Virus record (IMG/VR): IMGVR_UViG_3300033141_005408 | Coordinates: 1 to 42,402 of that record | From: a virus | Direction: 5' to 3' (one strand) | DNA length: 42,402 nucleotides | In this document: positions 11,761 to 31,722 of the stretch, piece after piece | Layout of the letters: each line of letters starts with the position of its first letter | How positions within the stretch are numbered: position 1 is the stretch's first letter | Notes under the pieces: generated by a model | The model's input: the letters and a program-made list of their open reading frames with translations, nothing else | What the model was told of the DNA's origin: nothing | The model's database searches: none | Translations under genes and position numbers: made by a program

Positions 11761-12369
11761 ATGGCTTTAAATGGTGGACAATTAGGAAAATTAATTTTAG
11801 CGCAATGTGCCTCAAAAGGGTTGGTGGGTGTAAAGATGAATCCATTAAGCAAAGCTCTAGGAGAAGGAATTGTCTCATCGTTTAAAGAAATGAATCAAGT
11901 TCAAACAATAGATGTTGGAGTTTTAACCGTTGGTACGGGAAAAGGAAAAATGACTGGTATTCTTCCAAATACTTTAACAGGAGTAGTCATCCCCTTACAA
12001 ATGGCCCAAGGTATTCTTGGTACTGAAATGAAAGCTTTTACAGAAGGCGTGTGTTTTGCGGTAGCAACACACTTCAACACCATGAATGAAGTTGAAACCA
12101 CACACAGCACTGTTGCTTTGGGATCAGGTACCGGAAAAGTTTTGGGATTAACTCCGAATAAAATGGAAAATAAGATCATGCAAAATTTAAAAGCTCAAAA
12201 TTTAAAAGGATCCAAGATGGCATCTTTTATAAAAGCTTTTTCTACAGGATTTTGCATGAATATTATGGCCACCGCAATAATAAACGTAGCAATAACAGGT
12301 TCTCCAGCACCTTTAATTTTAGGAGCACCCGTTCCATCAGTCGGATCAGGTACAGGAAAAGTAAAGTAA
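11761..12369 (+). CDS. Triple-repeat structural protein of unknown function
   Basis: A 202-residue protein. ATG at 11761 is preferred over an upstream in-frame TTG at 11734 because AGG lies eight bases before it. The protein consists of three imperfect tandem units of about 65-70 residues (roughly 1-67, 68-130, 131-202). Each has a Pro-Asn or Gly turn, an amphipathic helix, K-M/T-E-M then A-F/L-x-x-G, a helix, and a glycine-rich end (GTGKGKMTGI, GSGTGKVLGL, GSGTGKVK). The repeats have small residues and are mildly hydrophobic without clear transmembrane helices. Its place between spike and giant baseplate proteins suggests a virion component, perhaps a ring protein with pseudo-threefold symmetry. 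The family is not recognised. Confidence 0.72.
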   Translation: MALNGGQLGKLILAQCASKGLVGVKMNPLSKALGEGIVSSFKEMNQVQTIDVGVLTVGTGKGKMTGILPNTLTGVVIPLQMAQGILGTEMKAFTEGVCFAVATHFNTMNEVETTHSTVALGSGTGKVLGLTPNKMENKIMQNLKAQNLKGSKMASFIKAFSTGFCMNIMATAIINVAITGSPAPLILGAPVPSVGSGTGKVK

Positions 12370-12381
12370 AGGATTTTAATT

Positions 12382-15300
12382 ATGCCTATTAATATGGGAA
12401 ATTTTTTTATAAGAAAGCCAAGAGTGAGTCAATACAACGCACCCTCCACAAAACCTCCTACATCACAAGGAAGTTATATACTAAAACAATGCTTTAGTGT
12501 GGCATATTCTTGCACAGGAACATCATCTGCCTTATTGTCTATTACAGGTGAAAAATTTCAAACTATCATTAATGAATCCATAGAACACTCCGATAACTTA
12601 AATATAGATGTTATAGGAAGAAGTGTACAAGAACTAGTTAATGTTATTAATGAGAATTCAAATTATACTGCTAAAATTTTAACGAATGATATGGATGACT
12701 TGTGTTTACTTGAAGGAACGACAAAAACGAATATTAATAATAGCACTCATACCATTTTTTATAATTTAGAAAAAGAATATTTAATAGATACTGCTAAAGA
12801 AGGAAAACTAAATGATTGTACCATATCTTATAAAGAGAAAGATTTTACTTATAGCGGAGAAAACAATAGATGGATGTTAGATGAAGGGTATATCTATGAT
12901 GAGATGGATGTTCCTTTAGAAGTAAACGGATCCACATTTTTAGGAAATTCAGGTGTTCAAATAAAATTTTTTTCAGCTATAGATAACAACGATAATGATA
13001 TAAACAGTAAAGTTATTTTTGAAAACTTAGAATTAGCAAGATCCTTAGATACCCCTCTTTCCGAAACTATTTTTTCTGCTGCCCCAATACTCATTGATAA
13101 GACTCTCACCCTAAAAATAAATCAAGAAATAAAAGAAGAAGGAAAGGATTACTTGATTGATTATGGTATTCCTGCAGAATTAAAAACAATTAATGCATCT
13201 CCCTATACCTTTGACAACTCAAATAATATATTCAGAATAAGACACAACAGTACTCCCATGCAAGAATTTGTTTTTCCCATAGGACTTGTAACTGTTGCTG
13301 AATTAGTAAGTATAGTTAATCAAGAATCAAATAACTTTAAGGCATACTCCTTTCTAGATGAAGAAACAAAATTAGAATATTTTTCGATTAAAGCAAATCG
13401 AGGCACTTCCTATCATCAACTTAAAATCGAAGACGGTACAGCTAACTCCGTGCTAGGATACACATCTCAACTCGCTGCCAAAGGAGAATCTAACGGAAAA
13501 CTGTTGTTTATGACTCATATTCCTTCAGAAAATATTACTCCTTTAGAAAAAACAAATAATCTTAAAGTTAGTGCTGTGGATACGATTGTAGATAATCCTT
13601 TTTTAGGAATTTCAATTAATAATTTTAAATTACAAGAAAAAGGAGAAGAGCTGAAAAAAGATAAAGATTTTCTTATTTCAGAATCTGGAGAAATTCAATT
13701 AACATCAGAAGTAAAAAAAGAAAAATTATTAAGTGGAATTTTAACGGAGGACAGTACCTTATTTCCTGAGAGCTATAATGTCTATGACAATGGTAATAAA
13801 CTTTTGGTTGGAATAGACTATAAGATAAATACACAAGGTGGGTGGATTACTCTAATGACATCTGCTTTTCCTGGACATGTCTATACTGTAGACTACAGAC
13901 ATGTTACCGCGGGTATTATAAAAGGAGAAGTATTACTAGGTACACAAGCAGAGATATTTTCATCAGTCATTGCTCCCTATACTATCCCTTTTGATCAAAA
14001 CACATTAAAAATATCTATAAATAATGATGATGCCCAATTTTTTAATTTACCTTTAGGAAATAATATTACCCTTGAAGACACTATCTCATCTATCAATACC
14101 TCCGCCACTGGCTTTGATGCCTATCCATCCAAAGACAATGTTCTTGCTTTTAGAACCGTAGCATATGGCCCTAAAGCTACACTAACCATACTTGATGGTT
14201 CTTCTAATTATATACTCGGATTTGATGATTTTACTAGTGCAGCAGGATCAGGAGCAATAGGTGGAGAACAAGCACTGCAAACAACACTTACTCCCATGGA
14301 AATAGGAGGATTCACAGCACCTGAAGGTGGCGACACTATTATTATAAAAGATAATGATATAACTGACAGATATTCTTCTGGAACTATAATAAAACTACAA
14401 AATGATTTTTATCAAATAAAAGATACCTATTTAGAGACAAGAGCTAATCTAATAAATACTATCTCAGAACCCTATATTCTTATTGAAAACTCAAATAACA
14501 CTTTAAGATTTACTATTGATAATAATGAAGAAACCGAGGTACTCCTCAAAACAGGAAAAGAAATAAACGTTGATTTAATTGTTGATCAGATAATCAAAGT
14601 ACATCCGAATTCTGCAAAGACTATGTTTGTTAATGGAATAAAACGAATACAATTGCTAGGAAATACCCTTGTGAGAATAGGAGATGGAAATGCAAATAGA
14701 ACTTTAGGTTTTGAAAGTAATAAAGTAGACACCAATACACCCGATACTTTTTTATTTACAACTAATTTATTTAAGACTATCTATGTAAATCCCACTATGT
14801 ATACTACCGTAGATCCTGTTGTTTTCGTAGATGATGAATCTTCTAAAAGAGAGTCACCTCAAAATACTAATGAAATCTTTTTAATGGGAGATATCTCTTC
14901 TATTTATCAAGATAACATTGTCATCAGATTAGATAACAAATATTTTTATACCGTTAAAAATTCTTCATATGATAAAATAAATGATGTTACTGCTATAACA
15001 CTAACATCAAAAATAGATATACCTTTTTATAAAGATACTAAAATAACTTATACGGAAAATCCGATTTTATTAGAAAATAATGTTAAATTAAAAACAAAGC
15101 ATCTTCCAGTACTCTCGGAACCTTTTAATCTTTATAAGAATAATAATCTTTTAATCTTCGAAAAAGATTATGAAATATCTGATATGGGAGATATAGAACT
15201 TACTTCAGGATTAAAAAAGGGAGATCAATTAGACATTAATTACTTAGGAAAACGTTATATAGATGCAGGAACATCTGTTATAGCAGATTACACTTACTTT

Positions 15301-21741: not shown

Positions 21742-22527
21742 ATGGCCTTTGATTTTTTAGGAACAATACCATCTTTTGAACACTTCGAAGAATTAGAAGA
21801 GTTTGTTTTAATTGAAGCTGAAAAGATTGAGTATAGAATAGAACACTTCACTATTGAAAGAAAAAGACATCTTGAAATTCTAGATAAAGTTATGAAAGCA
21901 GATTTACAACTAAGATCAGAGTATAAGAAATCCTATAGACCTGATCGATTATGGCTAACAAAACCCAGAGCAAGACCCGTCCCCAGAGTAAGAACACTTG
22001 ATTCCGCAAATGCAGAAGATGTAGCTATTCTTAAAAAAGCTTTTTTAGATACAATTAAGTTTAAACGAGAAAGAAATGAATATAAAATAAGAAGATTAAG
22101 AGATCTAGTAGATCAAATAAATGATGAAATAAAATCCTTAAAAAAAATACAAGAAAGCTATAATACCCACTTAAATAAAATAAAAGTCAGGTTTGATTTA
22201 GATTCTTTTCCTGAAAATCAAAGAAATAAAGAACAGGATCAAGCTGAGATACAACCAGGTATGACTGCAGTTCCTGTAGACAAGGGCATTATTGAAGAAA
22301 ATGGCACAAAGTATTTTTTAGTGACCAGTATAAATCCAATGTTTGGAACAATTGCTTTTGATGGACAAAATCCTCCTATTAAAGAAGGAGACAAAATTCT
22401 TCTATCGAATGGTTTAAATAATGGAATAAAAACAGTTTTTAGAATATGGTCGGATAAGGCCGTAGTTGTTAATGAACATCTTATAGAAGAAAATAACTCA
22501 AAAACAAAAGTAGAAATAATAAGTTAA
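21742..22527 (+). CDS. Helical structural protein with C-terminal beta domain, unknown function
   Basis: A 261-residue protein, ribosome site AAAGGA, 12 bases after the preceding stop. Residues 1-165 are long charged helices (for example EELEEFVLIEAEKIEYRIEH and KIRRLRDLVDQINDEIKSLK) with a basic proline-rich loop, RPRARPVPRVR-like, near residues 73-84. From about 178 onward a small beta domain follows (TKYFLVTSINPMFGTIAFDG, then GDKILLSNGLNNG). Its location between the giant appendage protein and the gp25-like gene suggests a baseplate component. The family is not recognised. Confidence 0.6.
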   Translation: MAFDFLGTIPSFEHFEELEEFVLIEAEKIEYRIEHFTIERKRHLEILDKVMKADLQLRSEYKKSYRPDRLWLTKPRARPVPRVRTLDSANAEDVAILKKAFLDTIKFKRERNEYKIRRLRDLVDQINDEIKSLKKIQESYNTHLNKIKVRFDLDSFPENQRNKEQDQAEIQPGMTAVPVDKGIIEENGTKYFLVTSINPMFGTIAFDGQNPPIKEGDKILLSNGLNNGIKTVFRIWSDKAVVVNEHLIEENNSKTKVEIIS

Positions 22528-22568: not shown

Positions 22569-23339
22569 ATGTCTATCGATTTAAAAATAGAAAGTATTTG
22601 TGATCATCAAATCAATGATGAACAGTTAGAAATAGATAGTGATCTAAAAACTTTAAGATTTCCAAGAACTTTAGGATCAAAAAGGGTTACCTTAAGAGTT
22701 AACGGGTTTTTAATAGAACCTAATAACGCAAAATTTGGTTGGTCCCTTCAAAACGATGAGACTTCCTTATTTACCAAAAGATCAAAATTAGTATTTAACT
22801 ACAGTAGAAAATCTAAAGATGACTACTATATGGTTACTTATCTAGCTCAACCTAAGTTTTGCCCAAAGTGTCATGGATTAAGAGTACATAATGACATATC
22901 CTATACTAAGTTAGGTAAACTGTGTGTGGTAAAAAATGAAGAAAAACTTTTACAAGAAGTTAAAAAAGGCCTTGCTACTATTTTAGGATCTAATCCATTT
23001 CATTTATGGATAGGTACCCAAATACACACTCTAATTGGATCAAAAGTATATAATCTTGATTTAATTAGAGCTAGGATTGTAGAGGAAATCTCCAGATATC
23101 TAGAAAAATATATAGATATTCAATTACAACAAAGTGGTTATCAAGAAGTAACTGCTCGAGAAGCCTTTGGTCATATACTATCTATAGAAGCAGAACCTCA
23201 AGAAAGTGTTGATGTTTCTTACTGGATCATTTCTGTTTTATTTAGCAATCGAACTGGTGCAGATCTTCTTTATGAAAGAAAAATAAAAATACCAGATCCA
23301 AAAAACATATTGTATGGCTCCCAACAACCTAATATTTAA
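22569..23339 (+). CDS. gp25-like baseplate wedge protein with CxxC insertion
   Basis: A 256-residue protein. An N-terminal beta domain (1-92) contains TLRVNGFLIEPNNAKFGW. A CPKC pair follows (C98, C101). The gp25/W-like part has the helix EEKLLQEVKKGLATILG, then SNPFHLWIGTQIHTLIGSK (141-159), the NP-x-x-x-x-x-G signature near the small wedge protein's active-site-like Glu/Gly loop. The end pattern SYWIISVLFSNRTG gives the final strands. T4 gp25 is about 130 residues, so this protein carries an extra N-terminal domain. It probably joins the sheath and the J-like wedge. AAAGG precedes the start after a 41-base AT-rich gap. It is the last + structural gene before dut. Confidence 0.68.
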   Translation: MSIDLKIESICDHQINDEQLEIDSDLKTLRFPRTLGSKRVTLRVNGFLIEPNNAKFGWSLQNDETSLFTKRSKLVFNYSRKSKDDYYMVTYLAQPKFCPKCHGLRVHNDISYTKLGKLCVVKNEEKLLQEVKKGLATILGSNPFHLWIGTQIHTLIGSKVYNLDLIRARIVEEISRYLEKYIDIQLQQSGYQEVTAREAFGHILSIEAEPQESVDVSYWIISVLFSNRTGADLLYERKIKIPDPKNILYGSQQPNI

Positions 23340-23359
23340 TATTAATATTTTCTAAAAAC

Positions 23360-23388
23360 TTGACCTTTTCTTATGCAAACCATATTAT
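23360..23388 (+). promoter_or_regulatory. Sigma70-like promoter of dut-rfbC
   Basis: TTGACC at 23360-23365 and TATTAT at 23383-23388 are separated by exactly 17 bases; each matches five of six consensus bases. It lies in the 86-base gap before dut. A second -10-like TATAAT follows at 23406-23411 within TTTTGTATAAT, so initiation may occur at more than one place. Confidence 0.6.
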
Positions 23389-23400
23389 TTGATTAAATTA

Positions 23401-23411
23401 TTTTGTATAAT
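23401..23411 (+). promoter_or_regulatory. Second copy of the TTTTGTATAAT element
   Basis: Identical in 11 bases to 11732-11742 and lying just before GGAGG and the dut ATG. It may be a second start site or a phage-specific promoter motif; no good -35 is seen at standard spacing. Confidence 0.38.
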
Positions 23412-23425
23412 GGAGGAAAATTTAT

Positions 23426-23851
23426 ATGCTCAATCTTGAACGAATTCACAAGGATGCTCAAATACCAAAAAGATCAAAACGAGGAGATTCTGGATTAGAC
23501 TTGTCCAGTGTAACAGACATCACGCTTCAACCAGGAGAAGTGAAGCTAATACCCACAGGATGGAAAATGTCAGTTCCTCTTGGTTTTGAAATTCAAATTA
23601 GACCTCGTTCAGGTTTAGCTTTTAAACATAAAATAATGGTACTGAATTCTCCAGGAACTGTGGATTCTTCATATCGTGGGCATGTACAAGTAATCTTATA
23701 TAATGGAGGAACAGAGCCTTTTAAAGTAAATAAAGGAGATCGTATTGCGCAAATGGTAATAAACGAAGTTATTCTTTGGAACCCTCTGATAATAGAAAAA
23801 CTTCCTGAAACAAATCGAGGCTCAAAGGGCTTTGGCTCAACAGGAGTATAA
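23426..23851 (+). CDS. dut: dUTP diphosphatase (trimeric dUTPase)
   Basis: A 141-residue enzyme that hydrolyses dUTP to dUMP and pyrophosphate, keeping uracil out of DNA and feeding dTMP synthesis. All five signature motifs are present and in order: RGDSGLDL (19-26), RPRSGLA (59-65), GTVDSSYRG (77-85, catalytic Asp80), GDRIAQM (104-110), and RGSKGFGSTGV at the C-terminus (131-141). Length is typical of the homotrimeric family and the protein looks intact. A strong site, GGAGG, precedes the ATG. Two bases separate it from rfbC, whose ribosome site AGGAG lies inside the end of dut, so the two are probably co-transcribed from the promoter at 23360. Confidence 0.96.
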   Translation: MLNLERIHKDAQIPKRSKRGDSGLDLSSVTDITLQPGEVKLIPTGWKMSVPLGFEIQIRPRSGLAFKHKIMVLNSPGTVDSSYRGHVQVILYNGGTEPFKVNKGDRIAQMVINEVILWNPLIIEKLPETNRGSKGFGSTGV

Positions 23852-23853
23852 CC

Positions 23854-24420
23854 ATGTCCTTTCATTTTAAAAAATTAGGATTGGGAAATGTTATTTTAAT
23901 TACCCCAGAAATCTTTAAAGATAATCGAGGTTTCTTTTTGGAAATTTTTAAAGCGAGTGACTTTTATGCCGCAGGTATACAAGAAACTTTTACACAAGAT
24001 AACCATTCTTTTTCTACAAAAAATGTATTGCGGGGAATTCACTTTCAAAAGCATCCAAAACCTCAAGGGAAAATAGTAAGATGCCTTAGAGGAGCTATCT
24101 TTGATGTTGCTGTTGACTTAAGACCATCATCAAACACTTTTATGAAGTGGGTAGGTCTTGAACTCACCAAGTATAACAAACAGATGTTATATATTCCTCC
24201 AGGATTTGGCCACGGTTTTTCTACACTCAGCGATGATGCGGAGATTGGCTATAAATGTACTAATGAATATTCTTCAGAATTAGACGGGGGAATAATTTGG
24301 AATGATACACAATTAGCAATTAATTGGCGAATAAAAAATCCATTAATATCAAAAAAAGACAATAACTTACCAACTGTTTCCCAGTATTACAACAAGAGTT
24401 GCTTAGCTGAGATAAGCTAA
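23854..24420 (+). CDS. rfbC: dTDP-4-dehydrorhamnose 3,5-epimerase
   Basis: A 188-residue cupin enzyme that epimerises C3 and C5 of dTDP-4-keto-6-deoxyglucose, the third step of dTDP-L-rhamnose synthesis. Signature parts are present: FKDNRGFFLEIF (21-32), QDNHSFS (48-54), RGIHFQ with His63 as catalytic base, IPPGFGHGF (114-122), Tyr133 in IGYKCTNEYS as the proton donor, and WNDTQLAINW (149-158). Asp169, in SKKDN, is the likely partner of the catalytic His. Length matches cellular RfbC/RmlC, so the enzyme is probably active. The rest of the pathway (RfbA, RfbB, RfbD) is not in the window, so substrate probably comes from the host or from distant phage genes. It ends by converging with the minus-strand gene at 24403, overlapping it by 18 bases. 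Confidence 0.95.
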   Translation: MSFHFKKLGLGNVILITPEIFKDNRGFFLEIFKASDFYAAGIQETFTQDNHSFSTKNVLRGIHFQKHPKPQGKIVRCLRGAIFDVAVDLRPSSNTFMKWVGLELTKYNKQMLYIPPGFGHGFSTLSDDAEIGYKCTNEYSSELDGGIIWNDTQLAINWRIKNPLISKKDNNLPTVSQYYNKSCLAEIS

Positions 24421-24437
24421 TATCTCAAAAGTTTTTT
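24403..24437. terminator. Two overlapping hairpins at the convergent gene ends
   Basis: TTAGCT (24403-24408) pairs with AGCTAA (24415-24420), and GAGATA (24409-24414) pairs with TATCTC (24421-24426). They share bases, so only one can form at a time. The first contains the stop codons of both converging genes (AGCTAA on each strand). The second is followed by AAAAG and a T-run on the + strand, fitting termination of dut-rfbC. Confidence 0.5.
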
Positions 24438-24837
24438 CTTTCACAACATCTGTAATTTTTTTCTCATGAAGTAACTGCCATGAAAAAGCAATAATACTAT
24501 TAGTTACTGCTATAGGAGAATGAGGATCCTTTGGATGTTTTCTTGCTATACGAAGCTCTAATCTACCCTTATCTCCCTTAAATCTATCAGAGCCTGTGAC
24601 CTCGTCCAATTCAAAATCATTATCTGCTAAAATTTCATTTATCTTACTGATACCATGATCTATCTTTTTAAAACGTCCATTTCCATCTAAACCATCTTTA
24701 CGAAAGGCATCATTAATTTTTTTTCTTTCTTTAGGCTTAACTTTTTCTGGTTTATCGGTTTTAGTTATGAAGTCAATAGACTGCTCCATCCCAAGCTTAG
24801 TCAATGTCTTTGCAATTATCTTTAACCTATTCTCCAT
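24403..24837 (-). CDS. Conserved-looking protein of unknown function
   Basis: A 144-residue, charged, mostly helical protein. Segments are KLGMEQSIDFITK near the N-terminus, a very basic stretch KPEKVKPKERKKINDAF (31-47), and a possible beta-rich middle with LELRIARKHP. The C-terminal helix is SIIAFSWQLLHEKKITDVVKEK. AAGGGG lies before the ATG. It is last in the minus-strand structural run and converges with rfbC. Its stop lies inside a hairpin shared with the rfbC stop. I do not recognise the family. Context gives no firm role, although a virion or assembly function is possible because the four genes upstream on this strand are tail genes. Confidence 0.65.
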   Translation of the reverse strand: MENRLKIIAKTLTKLGMEQSIDFITKTDKPEKVKPKERKKINDAFRKDGLDGNGRFKKIDHGISKINEILADNDFELDEVTGSDRFKGDKGRLELRIARKHPKDPHSPIAVTNSIIAFSWQLLHEKKITDVVKEKTFEILAYLS

Positions 24838-24961
24838 ATTAGACCCCTTTCCGCATTAATTTAATTACTGTTTAGATGATATCCTCAAATATTAATAGAA
24901 AAACATTTTTGAAAAATATCAAGATAGACATGATTTGTAGAATATCTGATCTTAGTAAAAA

Positions 24962-25576
24962 TTAAGTAGTTAATCTTAGTAAGATCGACATCGAGCTAGT
25001 GTTGCTTTTATTGATAACAGGGAGAGTACGGTAGTTAACTAGAGTACCTGAATTAGCAACTGTTTCATCAGCATCCCCACCAAACAAACCTAACTCCATA
25101 ATTGGACCAACTGCTTCAGATTCAGATAGAACTGTTTGAAAATCTACAATATTAGTTATTTCAGATGCAGGTAATCCCGAACCATCTGTTTTAACAAAGT
25201 TAACATTTGCGAATTTTTTTCTTGCTAATTCTGATTCTAATTGTGTCTGAGTAGATGTGGCTGCTGGTGGATTAGCAGAATCCCAGGAAGCATTCCCAGT
25301 CCCCACTGCAAGAACCCAAATACCATGTGCTGGGCCTGTTGGATCAAGAGTAGTTTGCCCATCTGCCAGAAGTCTTGCAATTAAGATTGATGCAGAATCT
25401 ACTATAATATTTCTATAATATTTTTCTTCTTTTCCGTCTTTATGCTTTAGGGTGATAAAAAACTCACCTTTTATACCAGAATTTTTTTTTGAAGTTTCAG
25501 AATAACGCATACCTAAACCAATTCTTCCACCAGCTTCAGTTGTTTCTTTTAAAATTTCTTTAGTAACATTGCCCAT
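24962..25576 (-). CDS. Tail fibre connector / baseplate-associated protein
   Basis: A 204-residue beta-rich protein with a very strong ribosome site (TTGGAGG). After a helical N-terminus the core reads GIWVLAVGTGNASWD (85-99), then an L-x-x-E-x-x-R helix (LESELARKKFANVNF), a D-F-x-x-x-x-x-E-S-E segment, and IMELGLFGGDADE near 159. It ends NYRTLPVINKSNTSSMSILL. The pattern VGTG ... L..E..R ... E.GLF ... R..F/LP.I.K is one I associate with phage tail proteins encoded beside the I/J baseplate genes, often called fibre connector or collar-like. It follows the I-like gene after 56 bases. The precise place in the virion is inferred. Confidence 0.58.
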   Translation of the reverse strand: MGNVTKEILKETTEAGGRIGLGMRYSETSKKNSGIKGEFFITLKHKDGKEEKYYRNIIVDSASILIARLLADGQTTLDPTGPAHGIWVLAVGTGNASWDSANPPAATSTQTQLESELARKKFANVNFVKTDGSGLPASEITNIVDFQTVLSESEAVGPIMELGLFGGDADETVANSGTLVNYRTLPVINKSNTSSMSILLRLTT

Positions 25577-25632
25577 GTCTAATTTCCTCCAAGATTCATA
25601 TTTTGTTGTAATTATATAAGTATATTAATTAA

Positions 25633-28611
25633 TTATACAGGAGTAATGTTAATTGCTGTGGTAACAAAAGAATTATTATTTTGATTTAATAATGGAGTTG
25701 GATTTTCATCAGAAACAATAGTGTTGTACATTGCAAAGATTATATCATTTTGATCTAACCCAATGGCAGTATTATTTCCGGCTGAAGGATCCAAGTGAAT
25801 TACACTATTATACGTTAAACAAAAGTTGCCCCCCAAATTATATTCAAATCCTTTAGTAAAATTAAATATCTTTGATACTGTTGAAATTTCTTTAGAAGAA
25901 AACAACACAAAATTAGAAGGATTTTGAACAGATATTAAAACATCATATGCATTTGTATAATCAATGGCCACATAAGCTACTCTAATACTATCACCATAAT
26001 TTAAACCTAATGGATTAAGTAGATAATCCAAATCTATAATTTGATTGTTAATGATATTCATACCCGTTAAATTATAATAAAAACTTTGAGTTTCGTTGTA
26101 GACATGACTAACTCTACTGTTTAATATTTTTCGTGGAGTTAAAAATAAAAGAGAAGATGATCCCGATAGACTATAATTAATAGAACTTACTTTTACTCCA
26201 TAAGAATTGATACTGGGATCAATTAGTTGCATATCATCTAGTGTATAACCATTTAACATAAACGGGATATAATCCGTTAATTTAACGTATGAAGTCTCTA
26301 AATCTGATTCTTGAAGTTTTGTTCCTGAAAGCACATCATCTAAATCATTAGTTTTACCTACATTAGTGATTAGCCAACTTTCTTCTTTGTAGTATTCTCT
26401 GGACACATCGTCTATGTGTATGGGCATTATTGTATTTAAATCTTGATGAACATAAGCAGATGCATCTGTAAAAGTATGTAATAAATAACCTCGATCAGAA
26501 GAATTACCTTCTCCTGCTAGAATACCGACACTATATACTGGGTTTTCTTGAGGGTCTCTATTCCATAAGCTTTCCCAGAGTTCATCAATACCATCATATT
26601 CCTCTTCTTTAATTTCATCAATTAACATATGGGCCGTGGTGTGCGTTCCCCCTAAATGACACTCTCCTGTACCTAACACCTCATTTGGAGGTTCTGCAAA
26701 GGTCCAACTACAATTGCCTCCATGCAAAGTACAATTCAGATCATTTATCACATTAAAAGTAGCATCTACATAACCTGATCCGGAATATAATGCAGGAACA
26801 AGTGGAAAAGTAAATAATTGACAGTCGTGATCTCGTTTAATAGTTGTTACCGATCCACCGTGAGTGAAATCAACCTCTATTAAACGTTGGAAGTTTATTC
26901 TTAAACTGCTGTTAGGATCTTCACAAAGAGATTGAACTAAACCTGGGGTACCTCCATTATCTAAAATATCATATTCAAGAGCACTATAGAAAGGATGGTA
27001 TGAGTCATTGTGAATCTCACCAAACATTCTATCTTCTCTAGTATTCATAATAAATTCATTATTATTTAATCTAAACTCTTGAAAAGGAAGTCTTCTCCAC
27101 ACATCTTGTTTTTCTAAAGATCTTGGAACTAACTCTTGTCCTGCCACTAGAGTAGTAGGATAAATGCCTTGATCATATCCATGAGATTTAAAAACACTAT
27201 AATCATTCAATCTATTTCTTAAACTTAACTCATTCATATTCAAAGTTAAAGCATCATTAAGAACAGAAGAATTAAATAAGTTAAAACCTTTATAACGATA
27301 TTTTTTTTCAAGAGGAATTAACTCTTCTATTGAATAAATAGCAGGAAACAACACTGTTTTATAATTTAACTCGGTAGCTTGATTTTTCCAATTGTTTATT
27401 ACGGAGTCTACGTCATTTGTAATCAAGGCCCCTACATACTTTTTTAAAGCGAAATAAGTAACCGTAACTGTAGCATCTTCTGCAGGAATATTTTTTAATT
27501 TAAATGCCGCAGATAAAGGGTGTATCTCTAATACATCCACTCTAATATTGTTCACATAAACTTGAATATCCGTAACAGAATCTGCTAAAGATCCATCTTC
27601 TTTACCAAAGGGACCAGTTCGAGTATGAAACATTGCTGGATCAGATGTATCCCAGTTACCTCCTGTAATAGACTTGGCCCATCTTGGAGATGCTTGCCTT
27701 ATTTCTCCTTCAGGAAAAATACCTTGAACTATCTCATCCTTAACTTTTAAAAAATTTTCACCTGAACATTTTTTTCTTAAATCTTCATAGTAATACTCGT
27801 GTGTATCTATGTGCGCCACATCACATATAGCAGTATTTGCTTTTTTTATTTTTGTTTCAAAACCATCATGAGTTATAATCGGGTTGCCGTGCTCATCTGT
27901 AACTAAAAGACATCCTTTTCTAAAAATATCAAAAAATTCAGAAAAAATAAATTTAGTTGAGAAAGTGGTGTGGGCCGGTTTGATGATATTTAATAAAAAT
28001 TCTATATCTTTTTGAAGTTGATTAACATCCTTTATCCTTGGATCATCTACTTCAATCACTATATCAAAAGTAAACTTATTGATAATGGAGTCAAAGATAG
28101 CTTCATCTCGAGATAATAAAAAATTTTCAATTATACCCACAGGAATATCTAAGAATTTTAAAAGAGATCTTTCAATATTTATTTTGGTACTACCCCCAAA
28201 ATATGCTTCAATAATTGACAAATAAAAATTTCTTACTTTTTCATCTGAAGAATCAGTTTGAGCAAAACGTTGTCTAGGAAAAAGAAAGGATGCTATATTT
28301 TGAGAAAGATACTCACCTCGAGTTGTATCAAAGATAATATTGTCCGTGACCTGCTCTGTGATACATAAAAATCTAGCAGATTCAAAAGCAATTGCTTTTA
28401 AATGCATGGCATAGTTAGTACTAGGTACATCTGATTTATAACTAGAATCAAGCAAACCTAGCATACCTCGATCTTTAGGAATGAAAGTACCATACTCACT
28501 ATCGGACAGCGATCTTACTATCAAACCTAAACGTTCGTTGGCTTTTTCTAAAACGTTTTTACGAAATTGTTTAGTATCCACAAAACCATTAGAATTTTCA
28601 TTTAATGCCAT
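25633..28611 (-). CDS. Large baseplate wedge protein, I-like / gp7-like position
   Basis: A 992-residue protein starting three bases after the stop of the J-like gene, the order (J then I/wedge partner) common in contractile phages. The N-terminal ~280 residues are helical (FRKNVLEKANERLGLIVRSL, FLFPRQRFAQTDSSDEKVRN). The middle has mixed beta regions, including TVTVTYFALKKYVGA after VYVNNIRVDVLEIHPLSAAF. The remainder is acidic with many Asn/Asp-rich loops. The C-terminal part contains two beta modules of the type ILNSRVSHVYNETQSFYYNL. No catalytic motif was noted. Length is much larger than a typical gpI, so it may combine wedge functions (T4 gp7-like). The identification is mainly by position. 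Confidence 0.6.
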   Translation of the reverse strand: MALNENSNGFVDTKQFRKNVLEKANERLGLIVRSLSDSEYGTFIPKDRGMLGLLDSSYKSDVPSTNYAMHLKAIAFESARFLCITEQVTDNIIFDTTRGEYLSQNIASFLFPRQRFAQTDSSDEKVRNFYLSIIEAYFGGSTKINIERSLLKFLDIPVGIIENFLLSRDEAIFDSIINKFTFDIVIEVDDPRIKDVNQLQKDIEFLLNIIKPAHTTFSTKFIFSEFFDIFRKGCLLVTDEHGNPIITHDGFETKIKKANTAICDVAHIDTHEYYYEDLRKKCSGENFLKVKDEIVQGIFPEGEIRQASPRWAKSITGGNWDTSDPAMFHTRTGPFGKEDGSLADSVTDIQVYVNNIRVDVLEIHPLSAAFKLKNIPAEDATVTVTYFALKKYVGALITNDVDSVINNWKNQATELNYKTVLFPAIYSIEELIPLEKKYRYKGFNLFNSSVLNDALTLNMNELSLRNRLNDYSVFKSHGYDQGIYPTTLVAGQELVPRSLEKQDVWRRLPFQEFRLNNNEFIMNTREDRMFGEIHNDSYHPFYSALEYDILDNGGTPGLVQSLCEDPNSSLRINFQRLIEVDFTHGGSVTTIKRDHDCQLFTFPLVPALYSGSGYVDATFNVINDLNCTLHGGNCSWTFAEPPNEVLGTGECHLGGTHTTAHMLIDEIKEEEYDGIDELWESLWNRDPQENPVYSVGILAGEGNSSDRGYLLHTFTDASAYVHQDLNTIMPIHIDDVSREYYKEESWLITNVGKTNDLDDVLSGTKLQESDLETSYVKLTDYIPFMLNGYTLDDMQLIDPSINSYGVKVSSINYSLSGSSSLLFLTPRKILNSRVSHVYNETQSFYYNLTGMNIINNQIIDLDYLLNPLGLNYGDSIRVAYVAIDYTNAYDVLISVQNPSNFVLFSSKEISTVSKIFNFTKGFEYNLGGNFCLTYNSVIHLDPSAGNNTAIGLDQNDIIFAMYNTIVSDENPTPLLNQNNNSFVTTAINITPV

Positions 28612-28614
28612 ATT

Positions 28615-31600
28615 TTAAAATCCTGTGAATTTTTTAATAAAGTCATATGTTATAACCAAATTACCCACTGCCCCATACTCTATATCACTAAAGTTAATAT
28701 CTCTTGATCCTTCTGCATCCTCTACAAGATAAGTTATGGATAGGCTAGCTTCTTCAATAGCTCCTAGTTTTGGAGAAACATAAAGATGTCCGTCAGATGA
28801 AATAAATGCTCGACCTTCTCTTTCAGCTACTTTAGATAAATCGTCTACTAATAATAATTCAATATCATTTTCAAACACTCCTCTAAAAGCAGTATTAGGT
28901 CCCCCACCTTCAATAGTTTCCCACTGCAACACACCTATACTCTTATAAGCTGTGACATTCACAGCTTGATAAAATTCCCACTCGTCTGTGTATTCTTCTT
29001 TAATAACTAAGCTACCGTTTGCTTTTACCATCTTAGTAAAAGGAACAACTATATGATCTACTCCATTTATACCCTCAATGACATGTATAACGTCTGATTG
29101 ATAAATAGATCGACCTATGAGTTTTTCTTTTAAAAGTTTTGCAACAGTAGTTCTTATTTGTCGGTCAATGCTAGTTTGGTCGCTCCCGTCCTCCAGCATT
29201 ACTTTGATATCAAAGTCTATGTAAATTTGGGGGGATGCTTTTACAATCACATCGGCAGTAAGGTGCCGCATTTGATTCACTCTTGATTGCACATCATGTA
29301 ATAAGGTATTTACTGTATATGTGACCATAAAATTTTCACCAGCGGTGTAATCTACTAAAACTTTTGAACCACTTGCGATGGAACTACCCGTAGTTCTTTT
29401 GATAGTAGTAAGAGTTTTCATATCTCCTGAATTAATTATATAATCAATAGATCTTTGATACACAATAGTATTTGTTTCATCGGTAACTACAATAGTATCA
29501 CTGTCAATACCATACCTATCCAAGTCTACCTCATTTTCACCAAACAATAAATGAGCCTCATCAGTTACTTCTTTTATACTCCCATTTGGGATAGCATTTA
29601 CATATTTTAAAGACATCTGATCCTTAGAAGATGTTGAATTTCCAAATTTAAGAGGATCCTCTAATTTTTGAAGAATAATATTTTCTGAAGTCAAAGGGCC
29701 AGAATTTTCCCCAACACACGAAACCACATAATCAACAGGTTGATTATTAAATATATAGGGTTCTGAGTCTCTGTAACGATAAGAAACAGTTATTAAATCA
29801 GTTGGAGACAAACCAATAACCTGATTTGCGTGTAAGGATTCATCCAGATCAATCACCTGCCCGTCTCCTATAATCTTGGCATTAGTGACATCATACAGAG
29901 CTTGTTTAGTGATATTCTTTACCTCTATTACTTGAAAAATTGGTTTATCAAAAGTTATGCTAGAATTATAAATTCTAAAATGATAAAAAGGAACACTCTG
30001 TATTAAAGCAGATTCTTTTTTAATAGTATTATACGTAAAACCAAAATTTTCTGAATAGCTTGTTGCTAAACTACCCTGTATATAAATATCTACTTTTCCA
30101 AAAGTATGCACTTGTCTAAGTGAATCCATATCCCTTAACATTAATTTTTCACCAGCACTTATTATTTTTGTTCTTTGAACATTTGGCGTTCCTAAAGTAG
30201 TAGCTAAATATCCTGCTTCAGTACCCGCATCTACACTGACAAAAGCAAGCATGGCCCTTTCAGCTAAATCATTATTCGATTCAATATCTTGGCCAAATTC
30301 TGTAGGATTTGGATTTGTTACTCCAAAAATAGAATCAATACCACTAACAATTAATCTAATCTTATCCGCATCTACATTACCTGAATTTCCTGCATTAATA
30401 GATTGTATGTCCAATTTTATTTCATATCTATCTGTATTCGGGTTGTAGTGGTTGATTAAATCATCAACAGTTAAAATAAAATCTGTTAAAACTTCAAACT
30501 GTACAGGTTGGGTAACTTCATCTGAGAGAGTTTCAATAATACCTCCCGCATTAATCACAACATCTCTCAAAGGTGTCTTTAAAGTATAAAATAAAGCTTG
30601 TCCAATGGCATGCTGCTGTTCTTTTCTTCGGTGATTCACATTTCCAGCTAGTTTAGTAAAAGCATTATTTATCAAAGTTTGCACTTCTCCAGCATTCTCA
30701 TCTGAAAGAAGCAAAGCCTCTTTTAGTCTTAGCTTATTAGGTGTAGTTAAAACATCATCGGACAAACCATCCCCATTAGGATCATCAAATTCAATTAATG
30801 TTAAAAATGATTGTGATCTATGCATAAAATCTAGAATAATATAGATTCTTTCCATTTCGTCACTCGTGGGGTTCAGTAGATTTCTAGAAATAGTATCTGG
30901 CTTTAGATCTATTTCTTTATTGCTCTGCAAAATCTGGTTTATATAGCTTTCCTGAATATCCATAGTTGTTCGAATGGGTAGATCCCGAACAGAAGTATCC
31001 AGCAATAAAGGTTCCGCTCCCAACTCTGCGCTATAAATTGATTCTACTTGTTTTTGTGCAGTTATATCAAAAGCCACTGCTGTAACAACATAGTGGTTAG
31101 GCTCTGATAAAGGAGCCACTCCCAAGGGTTTATTCATCCGATTATGTACATAAGAATAATAATAATCACGTACAACTTTTTCTACTGTGGTGGTTGTTCT
31201 AACATCTCCATCAGTATCAACGGTCTCACTTAACACGATAGTGTTTTCTTTAAAAAAATCATGAGCTGATATTAAAATAGAATTTAGTAAAGTAAATCCA
31301 TAACTACCTCCACCAGGATTTTCACTTCCATAAAAGTTGTATCCTATGATTTCTGATTCACTATTTTCAATTATTGAGATTTTGACTGAATTTCTGCTTC
31401 TTTCTAAGACAATACCTGTAGGAGCACTGACAATTAAATTTAAGTCATCATCTGTGAAATAAGTTATGGTTAAAGATACCGCAGCACTTTGAATATCAGC
31501 AGCATCCACTGCTACCACTTCAAATTGATTTTCTCCTTCTGAAAGCATGGTTGTATATATCCATTCTGTTACTCCAGAAGCGTAAGTAACATCTTGAGTA

Positions 31601-31722
31601 CTTCCATTTACTAAAATATTTTTAGTGGTGGTGTCGGCCCAACCTTTAATAGTTTGACTAATTAAATTAGTGGAAAATCCTGGAGCATTTGTTGGAAATG
31701 TTATTTTAGGTATTACGGCCAC
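28615..31722 (-). CDS. Baseplate J-like (gp6-like) wedge protein with N-terminal Ig/FN3-like domains
   Basis: A 1035-residue protein; the start is GTG at 31722 with AAGGAG seven bases upstream. Residues ~1-95 form an Ig-like domain (KGWADTTTKNILVNGS, GENQFEVVAVDAADI), followed by an FN3-like domain to about 240 (SVKISIIENSESEIIGYNFY). The J core has NNDLAERAMLAFVSVDAGTE and GYLATTLGTPNV (near 479-505). The C-terminal J pattern is LTADVIVKASPQIYIDFDIK (about 817) and GRSIYQSDVIHVIEGINGVD (about 867). An inserted module, NTIVYQRSIDYIINSGDM followed by KVLVDYTAGE, resembles repeats in the 12382 protein. J proteins dimerise to build the baseplate wedge ring. It is the first gene of the minus structural run. 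Confidence 0.75.
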   Translation of the reverse strand: MAVIPKITFPTNAPGFSTNLISQTIKGWADTTTKNILVNGSTQDVTYASGVTEWIYTTMLSEGENQFEVVAVDAADIQSAAVSLTITYFTDDDLNLIVSAPTGIVLERSRNSVKISIIENSESEIIGYNFYGSENPGGGSYGFTLLNSILISAHDFFKENTIVLSETVDTDGDVRTTTTVEKVVRDYYYSYVHNRMNKPLGVAPLSEPNHYVVTAVAFDITAQKQVESIYSAELGAEPLLLDTSVRDLPIRTTMDIQESYINQILQSNKEIDLKPDTISRNLLNPTSDEMERIYIILDFMHRSQSFLTLIEFDDPNGDGLSDDVLTTPNKLRLKEALLLSDENAGEVQTLINNAFTKLAGNVNHRRKEQQHAIGQALFYTLKTPLRDVVINAGGIIETLSDEVTQPVQFEVLTDFILTVDDLINHYNPNTDRYEIKLDIQSINAGNSGNVDADKIRLIVSGIDSIFGVTNPNPTEFGQDIESNNDLAERAMLAFVSVDAGTEAGYLATTLGTPNVQRTKIISAGEKLMLRDMDSLRQVHTFGKVDIYIQGSLATSYSENFGFTYNTIKKESALIQSVPFYHFRIYNSSITFDKPIFQVIEVKNITKQALYDVTNAKIIGDGQVIDLDESLHANQVIGLSPTDLITVSYRYRDSEPYIFNNQPVDYVVSCVGENSGPLTSENIILQKLEDPLKFGNSTSSKDQMSLKYVNAIPNGSIKEVTDEAHLLFGENEVDLDRYGIDSDTIVVTDETNTIVYQRSIDYIINSGDMKTLTTIKRTTGSSIASGSKVLVDYTAGENFMVTYTVNTLLHDVQSRVNQMRHLTADVIVKASPQIYIDFDIKVMLEDGSDQTSIDRQIRTTVAKLLKEKLIGRSIYQSDVIHVIEGINGVDHIVVPFTKMVKANGSLVIKEEYTDEWEFYQAVNVTAYKSIGVLQWETIEGGGPNTAFRGVFENDIELLLVDDLSKVAEREGRAFISSDGHLYVSPKLGAIEEASLSITYLVEDAEGSRDINFSDIEYGAVGNLVITYDFIKKFTGF

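Follow-up and report, generated by a model that had tools for sequence, protein, structure and literature searches.

Genes of the dTDP-L-rhamnose pathway are already known from phages, some of which carry the pathway in full. Complete rmlBACD sets lie next to ribonucleotide-reductase genes in the Stephanstirmvirinae (Citrobacter phage Tr1, Escherichia phage alia and the phAPEC8 group), where rfbC-rmlD is also seen. Four dTDP-L-rhamnose genes have been found in the huge wastewater phage 3-SewaC (PMC10747093), and rfbABCD in a prophage of Shimia haliotis (PMC8224337). The role of phage dTDP-rhamnose is unsettled in the literature consulted; rhamnosylated modified bases have been suggested for Phapecoctavirus, in which the rml genes occupy the DNA-metabolism region (PMC7552041).

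Here we analyse a 42,402-bp viral record, IMGVR_UViG_3300033141_005408, taken at its full length and called the window below. It is a fragment of a large tailed phage in which rfbC, encoding RmlC, adjoins dut. The locus resembles that of the Stephanstirmvirinae in that a phage RmlC, with an RmlD-type enzyme (here in a related contig, G001), is encoded near thymidine or deoxynucleotide genes, these being nrdA, nrdB and thyX in the Stephanstirmvirinae and dut in the window. The difference is that Tr1 and alia have the full contiguous rmlB-A-C-D array whereas rfbC stands alone beside dut. Likened by description, 3-SewaC and the Shimia prophage possess four-gene sets, whereas the set described here is divided and, to the extent that the contigs show it, incomplete. 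Synechococcus phage S-B05 also encodes an RmlC near structural genes, but that protein is very divergent (branch 1.75) and is encoded among dehydratase, epimerase and glycosyltransferase genes.

As metabolic cargo, the window cassette is fairly ordinary. What is new within the collections searched is the clade-wide pairing of dut with rfbC and the position of the pair at a baseplate junction. With this locus RmlC is seen across one lineage of huge phages, a group about which little is known, and it probably arrived there independently. The locus also indicates that a phage genome can hold some steps of the dTDP-rhamnose pathway alongside genes for thymidine nucleotides. Should the pairing prove functional, the use of phage dTDP-rhamnose, be it on the host surface, the virion or the DNA, would become testable.

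Results

The window has the gene content of a large tailed phage, with matches to tape-measure, baseplate and tail families and an NAD-dependent DNA ligase. No tRNA was found in the 42,402-bp record, and megablast of 24 kb of it against 50,697 phages returned no match. Homology of its baseplate wedge gene and of the tail genes beside it places it among the huge myophages related to phage G and LR745208, with wedge proteins homologous to those of Bacillus phage G, LR745208 and Tunturi_5 at 25-31% identity. No contig of the window's own clade is longer than 192.7 kb, a length that may fall short of the whole genome; huge phages are those with genomes over 200 kb.

Table 1. Coordinates of the dut-rfbC cassette, its putative signals and the adjoining tail-gene blocks in the window
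Feature	Position	Strand	Remarks
261-aa gene, upstream tail block	21742..22527	+	No family match; syntenic in L026
256-aa baseplate-like gene	22569..23339	+	Upstream border of cassette; phrog_2669 baseplate protein, weak, 6.9e-4
Promoter-like site, sigma-70-like	23360..23388	+	TTGACC-17-TATTAT, upstream of dut; from scan and conservation in four phages
dut, dUTP diphosphatase, 141 aa	23426..23851	+	Intact; PF00692 108 bits; NF001862 168 vs 103 bits
rfbC (RmlC), dTDP-4-dehydrorhamnose 3,5-epimerase, 188 aa	23854..24420	+	Intact; TIGR01221 equivalog
144-aa convergent gene	24403..24837	-	Downstream border of cassette; end overlaps rfbC by 18 bp
Weak hairpin, possible terminator	24408..24440	+	TGAGATA-AGCTAA-TATCTCA, spanning the stop codon of rfbC and followed by AAAGTTTTTTCTT; read from sequence
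204-aa gene, baseplate wedge/tail-fibre-network-like	24962..25576	-	PF25691 34.4 bits vs 27; phrog_5417 80.5 bits
992-aa baseplate-region protein	25633..28611	-	28% identity with Bacillus phage G gp189 across 168 aa; 73% in G001
Baseplate wedge protein, gp6-like, 1035 aa	28615..31722	-	phrog_6 80.7 bits; 31% identity to a protein of 485-kb phage LR745208

The rfbC product scores far above the cut-off of PF00908 (229 bits against 27) and, over its full length, above that of the NCBIfam rmlC equivalog TIGR01221 (227.8 against 155.75). It matches 38 sequences in the PDB (best 1.6e-52) as well as PHROG 8784, a dTDP-4-dehydrorhamnose 3,5-epimerase of the moron/auxiliary category (8.3e-52), from which it does not differ at family level. 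In bacterial RmlC, the His-Asp pair (His63, Asp169) and Tyr133 are catalytic, and Arg60, Lys73 and His120 are substrate residues. All of these residues, and Asp84, are present in the window protein and invariant across 28 aligned bacterial and phage RmlCs. An AlphaFold2 model (mean pLDDT 94.5) adopts the RmlC cupin fold, and Foldseek relates this predicted structure to the solved RmlCs 1dzr and 1ep0 with TM scores of 0.90 and 0.91. Judged by sequence and predicted fold, the rfbC product is RmlC, and it is likely to be a functional enzyme serving late dTDP-L-rhamnose synthesis.

The partner gene encodes, by its motifs, a normal trimeric-type dUTPase: the translation contains all five characteristic motifs (GDSGLDL, RPRSGLA, GTVDSSYRG, GDRIAQMV and RGSKGFGSTG), matches dUTPases in the PDB down to 4.4e-38, and shares 70-72% identity with the orthologues that occupy this position in three phages. 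A scan of viral contigs with Dut alone returned four loci of 39-47% identity, which were set aside.

Only the dinucleotide CC separates the dut TAA from the rfbC ATG. The order baseplate gene, dut, rfbC is common to three other viral contigs, namely G001 (L002; IMGVR_UViG_3300033153_012477; 192.7 kb and, like the window record, a fragment), L026 (68.8 kb) and L027 (6.1 kb), and the same 256-aa baseplate gene adjoins the pair in all four. These relatives were found with a two-sequence alignment as query; a single-sequence RfbC scan of viral contigs gave nothing. The gap between dut and rfbC is 2 bp in the window, 109 bp in G001, 44 bp in L026 and 109 bp in L027. The pairing is far above chance. 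When the concatenated proteins were compared with phage records, none of the 2492 matching records covered 80% of the query in one place.

The scan that detected the promoter-like site is no evidence by itself, with 5 sites found against 11.4 expected by chance. Conservation supports one promoter for the pair: TTGAYC, followed about 17 bases on by an AT-rich second hexamer, precedes dut in each of the four related phages, the window included. A motif model of this site found nothing comparable elsewhere in the window or G001, and it is therefore not a general phage promoter class. Transcription of the pair from this site and the time of its expression are putative. At the other end of the cassette, the hairpin possesses two G-C pairs only and was missed by a terminator scan.

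These results confirm the observation made in the preliminary description of the locus and support its interpretation in part. The two genes are intact and lie 2 bp apart as called, three other phages keep the pair and its upstream site, the surrounding genes belong by their matches to baseplate and tail families, and His63, Tyr133 and Asp169 stand exactly where that description had placed them.

The RmlCs of the three relatives are 59-69% identical to that of the window. In a tree with bacterial and phage homologues, of the kind the preliminary description had called for, the four proteins form one clade (SH-aLRT 99; quick tree without bootstrap) apart from the RmlCs of the Stephanstirmvirinae, suggesting that rfbC was probably acquired once in the window's lineage. 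The Stephanstirmvirinae RmlCs form a clade of their own (SH-aLRT 97), close to a gammaproteobacterial clade, and thus point to a separate acquisition. The nearest bacterial RmlC to the window's comes from a cyanobacteria-labelled MAG (SH-aLRT 89, quick tree), but this support does not suffice to identify a host. In every RmlC pair dN is much lower than dS (about 0.06 against 0.92 in the closest, least saturated pair), so by codon comparison the clade's RmlCs are under purifying selection.

A metabolic gene of cellular type surrounded by tail genes might raise the suspicion of an assembly chimera or bacterial contamination, but we regard this as extremely improbable. The three further viral contigs repeat the gene order with proteins that have plainly diverged, tblastn found no dut within the flanks (up to 6 kb on each side) of the bacterial rmlC loci fetched, and the window contains no N and no break in composition. 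Chimeric assembly, which the preliminary description had named as grounds for abandoning its view, is excluded by the orthologous loci.

The borders of the cassette are also conserved. The 256-aa gene product is 75-80% identical in L026 and L027, and that of the 144-aa gene 76% in G001 and L026, where the strand relation is kept. About 20 contigs of more distant relatives, among them the 485-kb LR745208 and Tunturi_5, have a homologue of the 256-aa gene immediately ahead of the wedge gene, with both on the same strand. The window's clade, by contrast, has the two genes on opposite strands with dut-rfbC at the convergent junction, their nearer ends being about 5 kb apart in the window. The simplest reading of this synteny, and a likely one, is that an inversion split the baseplate block and cargo settled at the junction, which is likely to be a cargo hotspot. 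What else the junction holds varies: G001 and L027 carry genes for a collagen-like fibre and a subtilase together with small genes, and L026 has genes of the radical-SAM, DUF2284 and DUF7487 families.

LR745208 and Tunturi_5 also differ from the window in that RmlC is absent from their records, as it is from all the distant relatives searched, several of which are fragments. Dut is absent from most of these records, again several of them fragments, and Tunturi_5 has Dut elsewhere. The missing RmlCs and the variable cargo would suit a recently captured passenger beside dut that has no selected role. Such a passenger is nevertheless very improbable, and clade-wide conservation already disfavours it: rfbC has been kept in four divergent phages with every active-site residue present and dN well below dS, and its composition matches that of its neighbours (GC 0.34).

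Several further observations concern this region. Relative to window positions 22569-31722, the baseplate module is collinear in L009, L010, L029 and L031-L047, whereas the window's clade has it split over opposite strands. A collagen-like repeat protein adjoins a subtilase-family protein at the cargo junction in L002 (17515-20804; PF00082, 85 bits) and in L027 (2587-5564). At the same junction L026 encodes a 759-aa protein with four DUF7487 stretches (11958-14237; 252 bits).

Elsewhere in the window record, a 42-kb fragment, the NTP_transferase, NAD-epimerase, RmlD_sub_bind and Glycos_transf_2 profiles found no match, glycosyltransferases being sought there with PF00535; RmlC is the sole rml enzyme found. 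G001, also a fragment, encodes RmlC and, about 53 kb from rfbC (106,721-107,578), an RmlD-like protein with 239 bits to PF04321 and 217 bits to TIGR01214, whose equivalog cut-off is 224. No RmlA was detected in G001 by the NTP_transferase profile. Its NAD-epimerase was considered as RmlB and rejected (101 bits against an NCBIfam cut-off of 365). The search for rfbA, rfbB, rfbD and glycosyltransferases advised by the preliminary description thus comes out empty in the window fragment and yields an RmlD-like gene and a GT2 gene in the relative. Its statement that no other rhamnose-pathway gene is nearby holds within the 42-kb fragment but, given the RmlD-like and other sugar genes of G001, does not carry over to the whole genome.

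Discussion

The reading that we favour, at a probability of roughly 0.55, is that dut-rfbC is a cargo operon with a working RmlC which, together with host RmlA and RmlB, maintains or alters the rhamnose of some glycan, most probably one at the host surface. The two genes would be driven by a promoter of their own and lie where two tail-gene blocks converge, in a huge myophage-like clade. RmlC, as its sequence and modelled fold predict, would convert dTDP-4-keto-6-deoxy-D-glucose to dTDP-4-keto-L-rhamnose, and the phage would provide late steps of dTDP-L-rhamnose synthesis by this enzyme and, in G001, the RmlD-like reductase. By analogy with that relative, the window's phage would likewise supply late steps and draw the earlier intermediates from the host's RmlA and RmlB. 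The complete rml sets of other phages speak for this reading, showing that phages do keep the dTDP-rhamnose pathway (PMC7552041, PMC10747093). So do the equivalog score, active-site residues and modelled fold of RmlC, the shared gene order, the single RmlC clade with its low dN, the conserved upstream site, and the RmlD-like, GT2, DegT, ThyX and thymidine kinase genes of G001. Against it count the lack of a PF00535 match in the window record and, in G001, the lack of an RmlA match, an NAD-epimerase below the RmlB cut-off and an RmlD-like score just under the equivalog threshold, both records being fragments.

The preliminary description had listed a boost to host dTDP-rhamnose, an altered host surface and decoration of the virion or DNA as possible roles; each is plausible, and the present evidence fits them alike. 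We consider it rather unlikely that dTDP-L-rhamnose is spent on the virion, by glycosylation of a tail or fibre protein, or on the phage DNA, where a modified base would be rhamnosylated. The place of rfbC inside the baseplate region, the suggestion of rhamnosylated bases in Phapecoctavirus (PMC7552041) and the occurrence of dut together with ThyX and thymidine kinase within this group of phages argue for such a use. Yet the baseplate position is explained by the split block with its variable junction cargo, and a non-exhaustive search identified no base-hydroxymethylating or DNA-glycosylating enzyme.

It is unlikely that the epimerase serves another dTDP-deoxysugar branch, such as that of an aminodeoxy sugar. 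The idea draws on a sugar cluster at 60-84 kb of G001, where a DegT/DnrJ/EryC1 aminotransferase (317 bits), a second RmlD-family protein, the NAD-epimerase, GT2, transketolase halves and several radical-SAM genes are encoded. However, the cluster is seen in G001 and lies about 80-100 kb from rfbC, and the window protein is an RmlC equivalog with the Tyr133 and His63/Asp169 pair of true 3,5-epimerases.

In the favoured cargo operon, the dUTPase would guard phage DNA against uracil and feed dUMP to dTMP synthesis, and the shared transcript may simply match the expression of two nucleotide-type enzymes. Adjacency by itself does not show that dut is functionally coupled with rfbC. That dut might be tied to the supply of dTTP and dTDP-sugars, along the line raised in the preliminary description for thymidine nucleotides, is consistent with the ThyX and thymidine kinase genes of G001 and with rml genes beside those for ribonucleotide reductase in the Stephanstirmvirinae, although adjacency is not proof. 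Taken further, dUTPase, ThyX and thymidine kinase might enlarge a dTTP pool on which RmlC and RmlD draw for a phage-specific product, a modified DNA base or a virion glycan, with the pathway divided between phage and host; we hold this to be quite doubtful.

Two other features of G001 deserve mention. Its positions 60,000-84,000 (loci L019 and L020) form a dense plus-strand cluster in which radical-SAM genes accompany those for GT2, a PIG-L-type deacetylase-like protein, DegT, a split transketolase and an RmlD-like protein, possibly a phage cluster for surface sugars or peptide modification. On the minus strand at 86,120-96,561 (locus L020) lie eight small paralogues, one of which was checked and had no Pfam match; they start with sequences like MK.R.GFVSNSSSSSF, and all eight carry the motif SNSSS[SC]SF within their first 30 residues.
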